Shown piece after piece: positions 1-6,831 of a stretch of 64,000 bases of DNA. The position numbers were made by a program, and so were the translations under genes. The notes under the pieces were generated by a model. It did no database searches, was not told the origin of the DNA, and saw nothing but the letters and a program-made list of their open reading frames with translations. The stretch spans positions 62,001 through 126,000 of the forward strand of contig DVFL01000002.1 of NCBI GenBank assembly GCA_018713255.1, read 5' to 3'. How positions within the stretch are numbered: position 1 is the first letter of the stretch; every line of letters begins with the position of its first letter. Source of the DNA: Candidatus Cottocaccamicrobium excrementipullorum. Lineage in GTDB: Bacteria > Bacillota > Clostridia > Lachnospirales > Lachnospiraceae.

Positions 1-1387
1 TTTCTTCCAGATGATGCCGCACAAGCTGCCGCACATTTTCCTTAGGAATATTTAAAATCTCCTGATCAATCAATGCAAGCCCCTTCCTGCGGGTATCTTC
101 TGAAGCGTAATCCATCAAATATTCCTTCAGCGTCATCAATGCATTGGGCAGACAGCAGTTTTGGATCTGTCCGGATTTACATAAGGACATAAACCGGTCT
201 CCCGTTCGTCCCTCCCGGTAACATGCGGTGCAGAAACTGGGAATATATCCCATTCCCATCAGCCAATTTACCACCTCATCCAAGGTACGCTGGTCGCTGA
301 CCTCAAACTGCTCTGATTTCTCATCTTCTGGCTCTTCTTCTACATAGCCTCCTATGCTGGTTCTTGACCCGCCGGAAATCTGAGAAATGCCAAGATGAAG
401 CACTCTCTCCCGGCATGTTTTGCTCTCTCTGGTGGAAAGAATCATGCCGGTATAAGGAACCGCGATGCGAATGCAGGCCACAATTTTGGCAAAGGTATCG
501 TCATCGATTCCATTATCAAAAGCATCTGGATCAATATCATCCGCTTTTTTAATTCTGGGAACGCTGATCGTATGAGGACCTACGCCGTATACCGCTTCCA
601 AATGTTCGGCATGCATCAGCAATCCGGCAAACTCATACCGGTAAAGCTCCAGGCCGAACAGCACACCGCAGCCCACATCATCGATTCCTCCCTCCATGGC
701 TCTGTCCATAGCCTCCGTGTGGTAATTATAATCATGCTTAGGACCTGTGGGATGAAGCTTTAAGTAGCTTTCCTTATGGTAGGTTTCTTGGAACAGAATG
801 TAGGTGCCAATTCCTGCTTCTTTCAGCTTCCGGTAATTTTCCACGGTAGTGGCAGCAATGTTAACGTTCACCCGGCGGATGGCTCCGTTCTTATGTTTAA
901 TGCTGTAAATTGTCTTAATGCTTTCCAGCACATACTCAATCGGATTGTTCACCGGATCCTCTCCCGTCTCCAGCGCCAGACGTTTATGCCCCATATCCTG
1001 AAGAGCGATTACCTCCTGCCGGATCTCATCCTGGGTCAGCTTCTTCCTGGGAATGTGTTTATTTTTTGCATGATAAGGACAGTATACGCAGCCGTTGACA
1101 CAGTAATTTGACAGATAAAGAGGGGCAAACATCACGATGCGGTTGCCGTAAAAATCCTTCTTAATCTGCTCAGCCAGAGCGTAGATTTCCTGGTTTTTAT
1201 CTTCCAGATCACAGTCCAGAAGAACGGCGGCCTCTCTGTGGCTCAGCCCCTTCCGCAGCCTGGCCTTATTAAGGATTTCATCAATGAGCTGGCGATTATG
1301 CTTATTTTGTTCTGCATAAGCAAGAGTTTCCATGATCTCTTCATGGTTGATAAAGTCATCTGCACATTTTGATTTTGGATCGTACAT
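1..1387 (-). CDS. hydG: [FeFe]-hydrogenase H-cluster radical SAM maturase HydG (3' end beyond window)
   Basis: HydG cleaves tyrosine to p-cresol, CO and cyanide and delivers the Fe(CO)(CN) unit of the hydrogenase H-cluster. The translated 462 residues show the radical-SAM CxxxCxxC motif at C96, C100 and C103. They also show the HydG-specific C-terminal cluster motif CX2CX22C at C386, C389 and C412, which binds the auxiliary [4Fe-5Fe] site. The family is usually about 470 residues, so only a few residues lie beyond base 1, and no stop is seen. The ATG at 1387 follows a GGAGAAAGGA ribosome site. It is the last gene of the TM1266-hydE-hydG set, 56 nt after hydE, with no terminator between, so co-transcription is likely. 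Confidence 0.95.
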   Translation of the reverse strand, partial: MYDPKSKCADDFINHEEIMETLAYAEQNKHNRQLIDEILNKARLRKGLSHREAAVLLDCDLEDKNQEIYALAEQIKKDFYGNRIVMFAPLYLSNYCVNGCVYCPYHAKNKHIPRKKLTQDEIRQEVIALQDMGHKRLALETGEDPVNNPIEYVLESIKTIYSIKHKNGAIRRVNVNIAATTVENYRKLKEAGIGTYILFQETYHKESYLKLHPTGPKHDYNYHTEAMDRAMEGGIDDVGCGVLFGLELYRYEFAGLLMHAEHLEAVYGVGPHTISVPRIKKADDIDPDAFDNGIDDDTFAKIVACIRIAVPYTGMILSTRESKTCRERVLHLGISQISGGSRTSIGGYVEEEPEDEKSEQFEVSDQRTLDEVVNWLMGMGYIPSFCTACYREGRTGDRFMSLCKSGQIQNCCLPNALMTLKEYLMDYASEDTRRKGLALIDQEILNIPKENVRQLVRHHLEE

Positions 1388-1443
1388 TTTCTTTCCTTTC
1401 TCCCTTGGGTCAGTACCTTCTTCCCCTTCAGGTTTAACTGCCT

Positions 1444-2502
1444 TTAGGCAGTGTTCTTTTTATAGTCTCCACGGTCAACAACCACCTGATACCCAATGGA
1501 TGCCATGGACGCTTTCAGCTCTTCCAGGCCCTGGGCGGCTTCTTTTCCCGTGCAGATTTTATTGTCATAGAGCAGGTATTTTCCCCGCACATTTTCCGGT
1601 GAAAGATTCGGCATTACCACATTTGCACCAGAAAGAATCCCGGCTTCTCTCCCATCCTCAGAAGCAGTTCCCAGGGCTGTGGTAGCGGGAAGGAGCACCT
1701 TCGGCAGCATAATTCTCACCAGACTTAACAAATATAAAGTCAAGCCCACATCCCCCGCCGGCTGATGGCGAAAGGGCGTATCATGATGAGGAAGGAAAGG
1801 ACCGATCCCCACCATTTCCGGCTTTAATTCCTGTAAAAATTCCATGTCTGCAGCTAAGGTATCCGGCGTTTGGCCAGGAGTGCCCACCATAAATCCGGCT
1901 CCAGTCTGGTAACCCAGCTCTTTTAAGGTGCGCAGACAATCTTTTCGATGCTTGGGAGAAAGCTCTGGCGGATGGAGAAGCCGATAATGGTCATCATCCG
2001 CCGTTTCATGGCGGAGCAGGTACCGGTCCGCCCCAGCCTGGCGGAAGGCCGCATAACTTTCCCGTTCCTTCTCCCCGATGGATAAGGTCAGCGCACAGTC
2101 AGGGAATGCTTCCTTTATTCCCCGAATCAGGCAGATCATTCTCTCATCAGTAAAATAGGGATCCTCTCCGCCCTGGAGAACGAAGGTACGAAATCCCAGT
2201 TCATGACCGATTCTGCAGCATTCCATAATCTCTTCCTGGGTGAGCCGGTAGCGGCTGGCATGCAGATTGCTTCTGCGGATGCCGCAGTAATAGCAGTCGT
2301 TTTTGCAATAGTTAGTAAATTCAATCAAGCCCCGGATAAAAATACGCTTTCCATATTGCTGGTCTCGAATCTTACTGGCTTTTTCCGCTAAAATCCGGGC
2401 ATCCTCCTTTGTAGGGGCCTGAAGCAAAATCTTCCACTGATCCCGGGAAAGAATTTCTCCTTCTTCCAGGGCATTCAGGCATTTCTCTTTTTCCAGGTTC
2501 AT
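1444..2502 (-). CDS. hydE: [FeFe]-hydrogenase H-cluster radical SAM maturase HydE
   Basis: HydE is the second radical-SAM enzyme of H-cluster assembly and acts on the HydG-made Fe complex while the azadithiolate-bridged subcluster is built. The 352-residue length is normal. The CxxxCxxC motif that holds the SAM-binding [4Fe-4S] cluster is at C66, C70 and C73 (NYCKNDCYYCGIRR). The start overlaps the stop of the upstream TM1266-like gene in an ATGA, so translation is probably coupled. HydE resembles biotin synthase-type BioB/PylB proteins, but the adjacent hydG and TM1266-type gene make HydE the clear choice. HydF, the GTPase scaffold, is not in the window. Confidence 0.95.
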   Translation of the reverse strand: MNLEKEKCLNALEEGEILSRDQWKILLQAPTKEDARILAEKASKIRDQQYGKRIFIRGLIEFTNYCKNDCYYCGIRRSNLHASRYRLTQEEIMECCRIGHELGFRTFVLQGGEDPYFTDERMICLIRGIKEAFPDCALTLSIGEKERESYAAFRQAGADRYLLRHETADDDHYRLLHPPELSPKHRKDCLRTLKELGYQTGAGFMVGTPGQTPDTLAADMEFLQELKPEMVGIGPFLPHHDTPFRHQPAGDVGLTLYLLSLVRIMLPKVLLPATTALGTASEDGREAGILSGANVVMPNLSPENVRGKYLLYDNKICTGKEAAQGLEELKASMASIGYQVVVDRGDYKKNTA

Positions 2503-2801
2503 CCTGCCCCTTCCTCTCTGCCGGTGCCGGATGCCGCAGGAGCCTTGGAATAGAGTGCCTTGGAACTGACCCCAGGAAGTCTCCCCAGCTTTCCGGACAA
2601 AGCACTGATCACATCCATAGGTGCATCCAGCACCACGCTGATAATATTTACCTGCTTCTTTTCGTAAGGCAGACCCATCCGTCCGATCACATAGGAGCCG
2701 TATTGATGAAGCAGGGCATTGATCTTTTCCGCCTGACGGCGATCCTCAATAATGATGCCGATCACGGCAATTCTTGTACTGGATTCCTCCACAATAACCA
2801 T
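2499..2801 (-). CDS. TM1266-family iron-only hydrogenase system putative regulator
   Basis: A 100-residue ACT-like protein whose central part (TRIAVIGIIIEDRRQAEKIN, then a segment starting YGSYVIGRMGLPY) fits the TM1266 family. That family is found beside [FeFe]-hydrogenase maturation genes and is assumed to regulate them; its ligand is unknown. It is the first gene of the operon and overlaps hydE by 4 bp. The start is uncertain: the ATG at 2801 directly abuts an AGAGAGGA ribosome site, whereas the in-frame GTG at 2792 has a better 9-nt spacing. It lies behind a terminator-bearing leader (2802-3036), so expression may be controlled by transcription attenuation. Confidence 0.8.
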   Translation of the reverse strand: MVIVEESSTRIAVIGIIIEDRRQAEKINALLHQYGSYVIGRMGLPYEKKQVNIISVVLDAPMDVISALSGKLGRLPGVSSKALYSKAPAASGTGREEGAG

Positions 2802-3036
2802 TCCTCTCTTTTATGGACTAACATCTCCATAACAAAAAAAGCACCGGAAAATCTGGACATTAGTCCTCCCGGTGCGCTGAGTACACGAAATAAACTCTAT
2901 GCCTGCAAACGGCATACAGATCCGCTTCTTCCCGTCAGATTTTCTTTCCGGTCAGTCCCATGTATTTTTCCTCTTTGCCGCAAAAATATTTCTGATTCAC
3001 GGCGCAGATGCATGAAATTATTTATAGTCCATATGT
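2802..3036 (-). ncRNA. Candidate attenuated 5' leader of the hyd maturation operon
   Basis: Between the promoter at 3042-3071 and the first hyd gene lies about 235 nt without a gene. It ends in an intrinsic terminator (2834-2875) only 32 nt before the start codon. Three segments are mutually complementary. The 5'-terminal TATGGACTA (transcript sense, 3033-3025) pairs perfectly over 9 nt with TAGTCCATA just before the ribosome site (2820-2812). The terminator loop carries GGACTAA (2866-2860), which pairs with the same TTAGTCC (2821-2815). A further small hairpin (ATGCC/GGCAT) lies near 2900-2916. I did not recognise a known riboswitch family, so calling it a regulatory RNA is inference. Confidence 0.5.
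2834..2875 (-). terminator. Intrinsic terminator inside the hyd operon leader
   Basis: Read on the minus strand, GCACCGG (2875-2869) pairs with CCGGTGC (2847-2841) and is followed by a run of seven T (2840-2834). There is no room for a normal promoter between it and the TM1266-like start, so the operon must be read through it. It could also end readthrough from the MerR gene 290 nt upstream. Confidence 0.75.
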
Positions 3037-3041
3037 AAAAT

Positions 3042-3071
3042 AGTTTACCGCAGAATGAAAGATTCTGTCAA
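3042..3071 (-). promoter_or_regulatory. Promoter of the hyd maturation operon
   Basis: On the minus strand TTGACA (3071-3066) and TAAACT (3047-3042) are separated by 18 bp, close to the housekeeping sigma consensus. The predicted transcript start is near 3035. It lies downstream of the MerR stop, so the hyd operon has its own promoter. Confidence 0.65.
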
Positions 3072-3165: not shown

Positions 3166-3990
3166 TTAAAAACCATCATTTCCTGACAGCCCCATGAAGC
3201 AACCTGAGCAGTCATACAAAGGAATTTGAATTTGATAATTCCACTGCAAAATACCCGATGCGAGAATAAGCTGTACTGTAAATGGAGGATTCACACCATA
3301 TTCGGTTTTGGCTTTATCCATTAATTCGTCCAAGGTGTTTTTTCTGTTTTCTTCGGTACAGCTTGCACACAGATATTTTCCTTTTGGCAATATCTTCAAC
3401 CCATCCGTTTCCGCATAATGAGTACAGACAGCAAAAAGCCTTGATACTCCGTTTCTGGTGTATATTCCCGCTAAATCCTCAAAGGAAAACTGTTCTGCCA
3501 GTTCAGGAGTTATCTTTTCATAGAAATGGCTTAAATAGTTCCAAAGGTTGTCCAGCGTAGGCACTTCCAGGGTGTCAGATAGTAAAATAATACGTTCTGG
3601 GATCTCTTTGATGAACGAGCCATTGGGATTTTTGTGTGCCTGCAATTTCCGCTCATAGTCTGCTTTTGCCAACTGGATTTTAGATTTACTGTATTGCAGC
3701 GCAGCTATTTTTTCATCCGCTTTTTTCTCTGCCTGTGCTAAGAAATCCACAATTTTTTCCAAATCGTTGTATTCCAAAACCTTTTTGATTTCCTGCAAAG
3801 ACAAGTCCATAAGCTGCAAAGCACGAACTGTATTCAGACGGACAATATCCTCTTCGGTATAGTAACGATAATTTGTCCATTCATCCCTTGTACTCGGCTT
3901 TACTAATCCGATACGGTCATAATGCCGCAGCGTTTCTGTCGTTGTCTGCACAGCCTTTGCCGCTTCTCCAATCGAAAAATAATTTTTCAA
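3166..3990 (-). CDS. MerR-family transcriptional regulator with effector-binding domain
   Basis: A 274-residue MerR-type regulator. Residues 1-70 are the winged helix-turn-helix (FSIGEAAKAVQTTTETLRHYDRIGLVKP, then the YRYYTEED wing), followed by the dimerisation coiled coil to about 125. A C-terminal GyrI-like small-molecule domain resembles BmrR-type multidrug sensors. The start is a TTG at 3990 with an AGAGGGG site about 10 nt upstream; a nearby ATG at 3997 is out of frame. It is divergent from an ABC transporter pair and almost certainly acts on the 19-bp-spacer promoter between them. The effector is unknown, possibly a lipophilic compound. The block looks more AT-rich than its flanks. Confidence 0.88.
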   Translation of the reverse strand: MKNYFSIGEAAKAVQTTTETLRHYDRIGLVKPSTRDEWTNYRYYTEEDIVRLNTVRALQLMDLSLQEIKKVLEYNDLEKIVDFLAQAEKKADEKIAALQYSKSKIQLAKADYERKLQAHKNPNGSFIKEIPERIILLSDTLEVPTLDNLWNYLSHFYEKITPELAEQFSFEDLAGIYTRNGVSRLFAVCTHYAETDGLKILPKGKYLCASCTEENRKNTLDELMDKAKTEYGVNPPFTVQLILASGILQWNYQIQIPLYDCSGCFMGLSGNDGF

Positions 3991-4005
3991 TTTTCATTTC
4001 CCCTC

Positions 4006-4036
4006 TTGACCTTTGTGTATCACAAAAGTTTACAAT
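4006..4036 (+). promoter_or_regulatory. MerR-type promoter with operator dyad in a 19-bp spacer
   Basis: TTGACC (4006-4011) and TACAAT (4031-4036) are separated by exactly 19 bp, the over-long spacing that MerR activators correct by untwisting DNA. The spacer carries a dyad, ACCTTTGTG-TAT-CACAAAAGT (4009-4029), with 8 of 9 arm positions matching. It reads toward the ABC genes from beside the divergent merR gene. Confidence 0.85.
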
Positions 4037-4052
4037 TTATTTTAGCATAGGA

Positions 4053-4877
4053 CAGTACGGACAAGCAGCCGTACTGAAAAACATTACTTTGTCAATCGAC
4101 GAGCCGGGTATTTACTGCCTGCTTGGCAGAAACGGCGCAGGTAAAACAACACTTCTCAAGTCCATTGCAGGGTATCAGAATATTACAAACGGCAGGATAC
4201 AGGTTGACGGCAAGGTGATCACCACCTCCACTTTAGATATAGGCGTCAGCTATATCGAAAACTTTGCAAAGCATTTTAATCTTCCGGTACGGAAGCTGTT
4301 GAAGATCGCTTCCGAAGTAAATCCCAACTACGATTATGACTTTGCTTCTGAAATGATGGAGCGCTTTGAACTGGACGGGAAAAAGAAGTTTAATCATCTT
4401 TCCCTCGGTATGAAAACAATGGTTTCCACGATTATCTGTTTGGCAAGCAATAACCGCGTCGTGCTTTTAGATGAACCCGTCCTTGGTTTTGACGCAATTA
4501 TGCGGGTGGAGTTTTACGATATGCTCACAGAGAGTTTTCGGAAGCACCCCCGAATTATTATTGTATCTACCCATATCATTGAAGAAATCGCAAAGACAAT
4601 TCAGAAGTTAATCATCATTGATCAAGGAAGCGTCCGTTTTTTTGACACGCTGCAGTCGGTTGAAACAAAGGCGTTTAGTATCAGCGGACTACAAAAGGAC
4701 GTGGAAGCTGCAACGCAAAATCTAAACGTGATCGGTCAAGATACGGTTGGTGGTCTAGTAACAACTTATATCTTTGACAATCCCCCGGAACGAACTGCTT
4801 CTTTGGACATCCACCCATTATCCTTACAGGATTTCTTCATCCAAATGGTCGGGCATAAAGGAGGTGCAGCAAGATGA
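4053..4877 (+). pseudogene. ABC transporter ATP-binding protein lacking its start and first beta strand
   Basis: The reading frame encodes an ABC ATPase. It shows Walker A GRNGAGKTT, a divergent signature LSLGM in place of LSGGQ, Walker B RVVLLDEPVLGFD and the switch histidine STHI. Homologous ATPases begin with about 12-15 residues before the YGQAAVLKN segment. Here that part is missing: just upstream come only the MerR promoter -10 (4031-4036), the predicted transcript start near 4043 and a GGACAG stretch. No in-frame ATG, GTG or TTG with a ribosome site precedes Walker A. An upstream in-frame extension to 3873 runs through the promoter and the merR start and cannot be translated from this promoter. 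A 5' deletion is the simplest reading; a sequence error is possible. Confidence 0.6.
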
Positions 4878-5673: not shown

Positions 5674-6831
5674 TCATTCATCTGTGTGCCGGTAAACTGA
5701 AAATAATTCTTCCAGCATCAGCCAGTTTGCACGGAAAAAATTCATCAGCTGCCAGTATCCCGCCCCAGTCAGCCCAAACTCCTGAATCAGCTGAAATTTT
5801 GCCAAAAGGCTTCTGGGGTCTTCAAACCAAACTTCATGGCGGATTCCGTACTGCCAGTAATAAAAGTACGGTGATTTAGCTGTCTGGTCAAAGAAAATCT
5901 CGGAACCACGGTCAATGGCCAGCCGGATAGCTTCCAGTGTGTGAATGGTGTTTGCCCTGGTTACGCCCCGTTCATAAGGCAGGGGCCAATCATAACCGTA
6001 ATTCGGAATGCCAAGACTGATTTTTTCCGGCGGAATTTCTGACACGGCATATTCCACCACACGGCGGACTTTGTGAATAGGTGCTACAGCCATGGGCGGC
6101 CCCTGGCTGTAGCCCCACTCATAGGTCATCAGCATCACCCGGTCAGCCGCCTGCCCCAGCATCCCATAGTCAATTCCTTCATATAAAAGCCCTTTCTGGT
6201 CCGCTGAAGTCTTCGGCGCAAGGGCCACCGTCACCCAATATCCAAACAAATTCAAGATCTGACGAGTTCTGGATACAAATTCTACATAGGCAGCGGCGTC
6301 CTGTGCCCGAACATACTCAAAATCGATATCCAGTCCAGCAAACCCTTTCTCCTGCATGGTCCTCCCCAGCTCCCAAATCAACCGCTGCTGGACGGAAAGG
6401 TTCTGAACCAGCACGGTAATTAAATTATTGTTAAAGGTACCGCTGGAATCGATGGGCGTCAGCGTCATCACCGGTCCTACGCCAGCATCTCTGGCCGCCT
6501 GAATCATCCACCGGTCATCGCTGATGGGATGCACCAAGTTTCCCTCTGCAGTAAACCCATAAGAAAACACATACAAATCTGTTAAATAAGGCAGTGTCTC
6601 ATCTAAAACCCGGGAGTTGATAAATGGATAGGCGTAGCCGAAAACATAAAGGCCCCTTGTTGCACGGTCCGCACCCGCCTCTCTTTCCTCCGGGATGTAG
6701 AGAGACTGGCCTACTGCCAGCCGATATGGATATTCGATCTGGTTTGCCCATAAAAGAAGCTCCACAGAAATTCCTGTGCTCTGGGCGATGGCATCCACAT
6801 TATCCCCTTCTTTTACCACATAAATGGTCAA
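5674..6831 (-). CDS. LysM / glycosyl hydrolase family 18 protein (SleL/YaaH-like)
   Basis: A 385-residue protein with one N-terminal LysM (about 2-46) and a GH18 catalytic domain. The family motif appears as GLDIDFEYV with D168, D170 and the acid E172. This layout matches SleL/YaaH, the N-acetylglucosaminidase that acts on spore cortex muralactam peptidoglycan; many have two LysM domains, this one has one. The start is a TTG at 6831 placed 6-7 nt after AGGTG, and the LysM begins at once, so no signal peptide is present. That is typical of spore-coat or cortex proteins loaded from the mother cell. It converges on the accessory block and is divergent from the condensation-domain gene. Confidence 0.85.
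   Translation of the reverse strand: MTIYVVKEGDNVDAIAQSTGISVELLLWANQIEYPYRLAVGQSLYIPEEREAGADRATRGLYVFGYAYPFINSRVLDETLPYLTDLYVFSYGFTAEGNLVHPISDDRWMIQAARDAGVGPVMTLTPIDSSGTFNNNLITVLVQNLSVQQRLIWELGRTMQEKGFAGLDIDFEYVRAQDAAAYVEFVSRTRQILNLFGYWVTVALAPKTSADQKGLLYEGIDYGMLGQAADRVMLMTYEWGYSQGPPMAVAPIHKVRRVVEYAVSEIPPEKISLGIPNYGYDWPLPYERGVTRANTIHTLEAIRLAIDRGSEIFFDQTAKSPYFYYWQYGIRHEVWFEDPRSLLAKFQLIQEFGLTGAGYWQLMNFFRANWLMLEELFSVYRHTDE

Follow-up and report, generated by a model that had tools for sequence, protein, structure and literature searches.

The guanidine-II (mini-ykkC) riboswitches form a class defined by conserved hairpin loops, and in NikR a regulatory C-domain is coupled to a ribbon-helix-helix DNA-binding domain. 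Among RNAs associated with hydrogenase genes, a Moco RNA motif upstream of a Eubacterium limosum hydrogenase cluster is reported in PMC5651825. TM1266 is a conserved "iron-only hydrogenase system regulator", and no account of its mode of action was found in the open-licence literature searched. The leader described here precedes a TM1266-hydE-hydG operon and carries tandem hairpins upstream of a terminator; a search of the open-licence literature yielded no paper naming such an RNA.

Organization of the leader and operon

In the window (the whole 64,000-nt stretch of DNA that was analyzed), the operon and its leader lie on the minus strand and comprise the following features.

3042–3071, minus strand: sigma-70-type promoter TTGACA-18-TAAACT (TTGACA at 3071–3066, 18-nt spacer, TAAACT at 3047–3042)
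2973–3007, minus strand: P1 hairpin, CUGC-GCCG-(loop)-CGGC-AAAG, within the R1 model match at 2919–3010
2928–2955, minus strand: P2 hairpin, CUGA-CCG-GAAAG..UCUGA-CGG-GAAG, within the R2 match at 2924–2959 and present in the leader MFE
2898–2916, minus strand: P3 hairpin, UAUGCCGUUUGCAGGCAUA, following P2 and preceding the terminator, from sequence and fold, with the genus alignment read by eye
2834–2875, minus strand: intrinsic terminator, 7-bp stem and T7, −12.3 kcal/mol
2499–2801, minus strand: TM1266-like gene, candidate RNA-binding regulator (PF21699, E 9.8e-33; TIGR03959)
1444–2502, minus strand: hydE (TIGR03956 rSAM_HydE, 563.5 bits against a cut-off of 254.6)
1400–1435, minus strand: third hairpin copy, CUGA-AGGG-GAAG..CUGA-CCC-A, adjoining the hydG Shine-Dalgarno sequence AAAGGA at 1399–1394
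1–1387, minus strand: hydG, running off the window (TIGR03955 rSAM_HydG, 933.1 bits against a cut-off of 312.15)

An earlier, sequence-only reading of this DNA had proposed a TTGACA-18-TAAACT promoter, a gene-free leader of about 235 nt, and a 7-bp GC-rich terminator with seven T ending 32 nt before the first gene. The promoter is present on the minus strand at 3071–3042, the length of the leader is borne out by the window sequence, and the terminator is as described: its stem GCACCGG/CCGGTGC is formed by 2875–2869 with 2847–2841, and its T7 at 2840–2834 ends 32 nt short of the ATG at 2801. The conserved pair P1 and P2, and a related hairpin in front of hydG, were absent from that description. 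In all eight same-genus leaders examined, the conserved RNA is preceded by a −35 sequence of the TTGAC type and a −10 sequence of the TA type, spaced by 17–18 nt, and terminators follow it within the genus.

Folding of the leader (3036–2780) gave −75.9 kcal/mol, with a z-score of −2.96. The R1 match (2919–3010, corresponding to 1918–2009 of locus L001) scored 61.0 bits, L001 being among the training sequences, and the R2 match at P2 scored 33.7 bits, P2 itself being a training sequence. The hydG-front copy, which was not a training sequence, scored 19.0 bits with R2 (E 0.0048) and was the second best match in the 64 kb, the next one reaching 13.7 bits. This copy has a 3-bp stem and ends at the hydG Shine-Dalgarno sequence, at a distance of approximately 1.3 kb downstream from where TM1266 starts. 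Upstream of the operon, a MerR-type regulator gene (minus strand) and a divergent ABC transporter gene occupy 3166–4877; no sign of a link between the leader and these genes was seen.

Comparison of the whole window with Rfam 15 gave no match at or above the gathering score. The leader region at E ≤ 10 gave three matches, all far below gathering, and for 14 related loci, searched at E ≤ 1, the only matches were REN-SRE and PreQ1, again below gathering. An Rfam assignment was rejected, since nothing reached the gathering score. The hairpin RNA is assigned here to no known family, in agreement with the earlier description of an attenuator leader outside the known riboswitch families.

Conservation and covariation of the hairpins

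DNA upstream of TM1266 orthologues was taken from 31 of 61 related genomes, the window's own included (30 loci), and from a further set of 80 loci (the best 80 of 593); both sets were read by eye. P1 and P2, in tandem before the terminator, share the form CUGA-N4-RAAG-loop-CUGA-N4'-NAAG. Each strand reads CUGA-N4-NAAG, so that the hairpin consists of CU/AG pairs, an internal loop of GA/RA, a middle stem of free sequence, an RA/GA loop and AG/CU pairs; the middle stem has 4 bp, or 3 bp in the genus of the window. Nine same-genus loci whose upstream sequence is long enough carry CUGMGCYGU...ACRGCRAAG, a linker and ACUGACCGGNAAG...UCUGACGGGAAG (with some variation), followed by a terminator, and a degenerate form, CUGACRCC-NAA...GGYGGAAGGC, is common to many distant loci. 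The R2 hairpin model, built without P1 sequences, recovered P1 in L010, L050 and L072 (23.0, 19.3 and 17.5 bits); for most other loci the R2 output did not list P1.

Alignment A2 was made with MAFFT from 19 of 28 hand-picked leader seeds, chosen by eye, leaving out three with long loops and six of type B. Both sides had changed in 14 of 18 pairs, including all nine P1 pairs, and 85.6% of cells were paired, compared with 69.4% after shuffling and no more than 49.7% when partners were slid. In A5, whose 35 sequences were CM-aligned and hence lean toward the structure, the values were 87.9% and 67.5%. Alignment A6 held 29 of 32 single hairpins, partly selected for pairing (L072, L092 and L108 were omitted), and gave 90.0% against 70.5%; one of its pairs occurred as GC 9, AU 8, CG 7 and UA 5 times. 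Double-sided changes (5 against 4.6) and extra pair types (15 against 14.1) in A6 showed no excess over shuffles. A selection-free test used all CUGA-N4-..-N4-NRAG matches in the first 110 loci, pairing not being required. Near TM1266 or HydG starts, 20 of 37 such matches were fully paired at four pairs, against a shuffled mean of 3.5 and a maximum of 9 in 2000 shuffles; elsewhere, all four pairs formed in 2 of 36. Conservation and strong covariation mark the tandem of CUGA-N4-RAAG hairpins that lies ahead of the terminator.

A second leader type (type B) was observed approximately 100–250 nt upstream of TM1266 in eight loci (L045, L054, L055, L068, L071, L079, L088 and L096) from Clostridium, Sporomusa, Anaerovorax and others. 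Several contain a GGUNAGC hairpin, followed by CGURCUGA..GAGGGUUCGUCCC..GAGAAGGCGAGAGAAUAG. Judging from alignment A9, this type looks like a variant of the P1/P2 RNA; R1 finds a few of these leaders, at weak scores.

Genomic distribution of the hairpins

Hairpins were counted over loci L001–L110, a TM1266 gene being included only when at least 250 nt of upstream sequence was available (106 genes). At R2 scores of at least 15 bits, hairpins preceded 51 of 106 TM1266 genes and 25 of 78 HydG starts, with one copy or more in 59 of 106 loci; at 20 bits, the corresponding numbers were 40 genes, 19 starts and 50 loci. The HydG copies lie at a median distance of 13 nt from the start codon. In 47 of 106 TM1266 loci, no hairpin of at least 15 bits was found before TM1266 or HydG, and these loci include some with type-B leaders, some whose TM1266 gene is not the first of its row, and some with nothing visible. 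In L046 (2397–2447), a hairpin and terminator lie 2.5 kb upstream of TM1266, the intervening sequence appearing as if inserted.

Scanning 295 genomes of the order with R2 (E ≤ 0.01; all places fetched and classified) gave 63 places in 54 genomes, of which 55, including the best 37, were linked to TM1266/hyd clusters. The next gene was TM1266 in 25 cases, hydG in 24 and hydE in 3, and three further places (G285, G302 and G312) lie before a different gene that shares a row with TM1266 or diverges from it. A wider regulon at the order level was rejected: of the eight unlinked places, seven lie inside open reading frames and the remaining one, L191, was left unassigned. The R1 scan of 391 genomes of the class (E ≤ 0.05) gave 45 places, 34 of them linked to TM1266/hyd clusters, with 26 of 26 linked at E ≤ 0.005. 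A wider regulon was likewise rejected at this level, the 11 unlinked places all having E above 0.005 and that of G682 lying at a contig edge. TM1266 is 699 nt from the R1 place in G556 and approximately 80–105 nt downstream of it in G360.

Copies were also observed directly before hydF (L069 5313–5362; HydF domains) and directly before an aspartate ammonia-lyase gene (L268 479–551; NF008909, 687.7 bits against a cut-off of 510). The aspA gene is a known hyd-operon neighbor, according to PMC11736057. In L251, a hairpin and terminator (6512–6549) precede a glycosyltransferase-family-3 (TrpD/nucleoside phosphorylase-like) gene, which heads a row ending in TM1266-hydG-hydF. A 17.5-bit match before a substrate-binding-protein-like gene (L093) was treated as chance.

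Co-occurrence with TM1266

Among the 295 genomes of the order, the cut-off for PF21699 was exceeded in 134 genomes and that for HydG in 135. R2 matched 46 of 103 genomes with both genes (45 genuine; that of G317 lies inside a coding sequence), 2 of 32 with hydG and no TM1266 (G145 and G256, each time within a coding sequence), 3 of the 31 that have TM1266 alone (G104, G285 and G302, all beside TM1266) and 3 of 129 with neither gene (all inside open reading frames). For raw matches among the hydG-bearing genomes, Fisher's test gave p 3.6e-5, uncorrected for phylogeny. Scans of more than 40 genomes use strict filters, and the copies of G257, G287 and G218 were missed there and found in other searches; 45 of 103 is therefore a lower bound. 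For the same reason, the 32 genomes with hydG and no TM1266 were searched again with looser filters, which gave 10 places at E ≤ 0.3 in nine genomes; no hydG gene lay within 30 kb of any of them. The same filters added a copy within 500 nt of TM1266 or hydG in 5 of 32 previously match-free genomes with both genes (G218, G077, G067, G037 and G278); weaker places away from these genes were judged by coordinates alone. In genus g147, TM1266 is present in G278 and G306, preceded by a hairpin in each, and in G293 hydG has neither of the two beside it. TM1266 was present in 24 of 25 checked genomes with a model match, the exception (G441) being a match in coding sequence. As a local control, 0 of 20 regions upstream of hydG without TM1266 gave a match of at least 10 bits, and 7 of 20 with TM1266 gave one of at least 14 bits, five before TM1266 and two before hydG; this control is weaker than it appears, because the stretches miss operon leaders that start before hydE and five of the seven matches lie before TM1266.

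In genomes lacking hydG, TM1266 accompanies an NMT1-type ABC transporter, and the hairpin either precedes the transporter (L243 and L248) or is divergent from TM1266 (L244), at the following positions.

L243 1418–1457: hairpin by NMT1-type transporter
L248 997–1044: hairpin by NMT1-type transporter
L244 3428–3465: hairpin by NMT1-type transporter

In L243 (1418–4282), L248 (997–3705) and L250 (3496–6085), TM1266 stands in a row with an NMT1/phosphonate-binding-kind protein, a BPD permease (assigned by eye in L248) and an ABC ATPase. Rows of TM1266-hydE-hydF occur in L244 (3623–6128), L246 (4047–6544) and L247 (1703–4224), with HydF domains detected in L244 and L246 and the rest assigned by eye. 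No hydG exceeded the family cut-off in the genomes of these three loci, which apparently hold an [FeFe] maturation set without the CO/CN-making enzyme. In L249 (1118–6974), a TM1266-like gene lies between hypD with an AIRS-domain (HypE-like) gene and NifH-/nitrogenase-component-like genes, a neighborhood that hints at a wider role in metallocofactor assembly.

The RNA tracks TM1266 rather than hydG, and TM1266 is probably its partner; the RNA element thus occurs with the gene of its putative binding protein, as protein-responsive attenuators do. The earlier suggestion of a possible response of the leader to a protein, the TM1266-like product for instance, is supported. Since TM1266 and the RNA share operons, their co-occurrence, uncorrected for phylogeny, could also reflect a shared signal. 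The hairpins could instead be tandem aptamers of a small-molecule or metal riboswitch, binding a ligand of H-cluster assembly or one imported by the NMT1-type transporter, with TM1266 a mere member of the regulon. Small hairpins in tandem that act on a terminator or Shine-Dalgarno sequence do resemble small riboswitches such as guanidine-II, a conserved structured RNA is indeed coupled to a terminator or Shine-Dalgarno sequence here, and the RNA also precedes the NMT1-type transporter. However, all three transporter cases lie beside TM1266, the 32 genomes with hydG and no TM1266 have no copy near hydG, and the conserved nucleotides make up two short internal loops around a variable 4-bp stem, in which no large pocket is visible. 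We regard a riboswitch as unlikely, although it merits serious attention, and favor TM1266 as the putative binder of the hairpins.

The TM1266 protein

The 100-aa TM1266-like product matches the TM1266 family only (PF21699, 112.4 bits against 27; TIGR03959 hyd_TM1266, 115.3 bits against 60.8). Its predicted model (pLDDT 85.8) has a beta-alpha-beta-beta-alpha-beta domain, for which the first structure match was 2nzc, followed by NikR C-domains. According to this model, TM1266 is a predicted stand-alone NikR-C/ACT-like sensor domain that carries no DNA-binding region.

The hairpins might instead be bound by a different RNA-binding protein, such as a sensor of iron or Fe-S, with TM1266 acting downstream or as a modulator. 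The closest folds of TM1266, the NikR regulatory C-domains and ACT domains, would be compatible with such a role, its own nucleic-acid binding being putative. An unlinked global regulator would not, however, predict the tie to the presence of TM1266, and hairpin copies should then turn up in front of other genes, whereas seven of the eight unlinked places in the order lie inside open reading frames. This alternative therefore seems doubtful, and direct binding by TM1266 is retained as the preferred reading.

Alternative pairing of P2 and the terminator

A simple scanner located a terminator in the interval from P2 to TM1266 for 64 of 72 leaders, and several of the remaining eight show one by eye that the scanner had cut off. 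Over these 64 leaders, the energy of the duplex of P2 with its own terminator averaged −16.8, compared with −14.4 (sd 0.37) after permutation, and none of 5000 permutations was as good; in 22 of 64, the complementarity fell within the best 5% of the leader's own shuffles. For the 12 genus-like leaders alone the matched-pair test was weak, 280 of 5000 permutations being as good, and the scanned terminator of L009 was wrong. Examples of P2 and terminator segments are GCAAGGG with CCCTTGC (L008), GGTAAGG with CCTTACC (L010) and CGAAAGC with GCTTTCG (L003); outside the genus, the P2 3' strand GGAAGGC of L040 pairs with GCCTTCC of the terminator. Alternative pairing of the putative binding hairpin with the terminator, as in attenuators, is thus found over the 64 leaders and more weakly in the 12 genus-like ones. 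The corresponding strands in the window are as follows.

2936–2952, minus strand: candidate antiterminator 5' strand (ACCGG at 2952–2948 with 2847–2843; AAAAUCUG at 2943–2936 with 2855–2848)
2843–2855, minus strand: candidate antiterminator 3' strand, inside the terminator, from duplex computation

This candidate helix has 13 pairs and a 4-nt bulge, at −10.9 kcal/mol. The window leader was computed at −59.3 kcal/mol in the terminator state and −50.0 kcal/mol in the forced antiterminator state; the terminator state being the more stable, the default of this leader may already be OFF. P2 is compatible with the terminator and the antiterminator helix is not, so stabilization of P2 favors termination. 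The polarity of the switch rests on this logic and on the position of the hydG copy at the ribosome site, not on energies.

The sequence-only reading had placed the switch at the 5' end of the leader, in a 9-nt pairing with the segment before the ribosome site. In the window, TATGGACTA (3033–3025) is indeed complementary to TAGTCCATA (2820–2812), and the match is longer than in most shuffles (fraction equally long, 0.01). In the seven other same-genus leaders the longest match is only 5–6 nt, as in shuffles; kept in just one of eight leaders, the 9-nt helix is therefore not the conserved feature, and the helix competing with the terminator comes from the P2 strand instead. A constitutive attenuator without a sensor, or a switch by the 9-nt pairing, is very improbable: the terminator is indeed stable on its own and the window does contain the 9-nt match, but the match occurs in one of eight genus leaders, and a passive attenuator leaves the covarying P1 and P2 and the copies before hydG, hydE, hydF and aspA unexplained.

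Discussion

Our preferred reading, to which we assign a probability of roughly one in two, is that the leader is a cis-regulatory RNA, unlisted in Rfam, of tandem hairpins with two-fold quasi-symmetry, which TM1266 binds to shut the operon. The covarying structure, its concentration at TM1266/hyd clusters, its co-occurrence with TM1266 and the complementarity of P2 to its own terminator are observations; binding is the step that we infer. TM1266, the first product of the operon, would bind the hairpins as a symmetric oligomer. Bound P2 would be stabilized and its strand kept from the terminator, which would then form and stop transcription, and the hydG-front copy, once bound, would cover the ribosome site. 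Termination and Shine-Dalgarno occlusion would both lower maturase synthesis, providing a feedback; a metal or H-cluster intermediate carried by TM1266 could tune it. The leader would then work like a protein-responsive attenuator, a class assignment that hinges on the predicted binding of TM1266.

The hairpin, which turns up beside TM1266 in many bacterial groups, looks like a genetic switch not described before. More tentatively, the TM1266 family may consist of RNA-binding sensors whose NikR-C/ACT-like domain, rather than being joined to a DNA-binding one, reads the two-fold symmetric CUGA-N4-RAAG-repeat hairpin; they would, in response to a metal or H-cluster intermediate, control the maturases, the NMT1-type transporter and their own gene through termination and Shine-Dalgarno occlusion. 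TM1266 now has a candidate conserved RNA target, partner and mechanism, and a 40-nt RNA together with a 10-kDa protein would allow a direct test of the proposal. If true, it would define an RNA family as well as a type of RNA-binding sensor tying metallocofactor supply to gene expression; its reach would extend to many anaerobes, including gut Clostridia, with a bearing on H2 metabolism and engineering.

Compared with the leader associated with the Moco RNA motif, the leader described here has no Rfam match and precedes genes for [FeFe] maturases. Like guanidine-II (mini-ykkC), it has two small tandem hairpins; its loops vary, however, its conserved bases lie in internal loops, and the Rfam comparison did not assign it to that class. 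The C-terminal regulatory domain of NikR has the same fold as the TM1266 model, but NikR adds the ribbon-helix-helix domain, which TM1266 lacks. In ribosomal-protein leaders and the PyrR and TRAP systems, and as proposed here, an operon's own product acts on an RNA hairpin whose formation and that of an antiterminator exclude each other, and a second copy can block translation; the present leader differs from these in its motif and in its putative binder, a stand-alone NikR-C/ACT-like domain.
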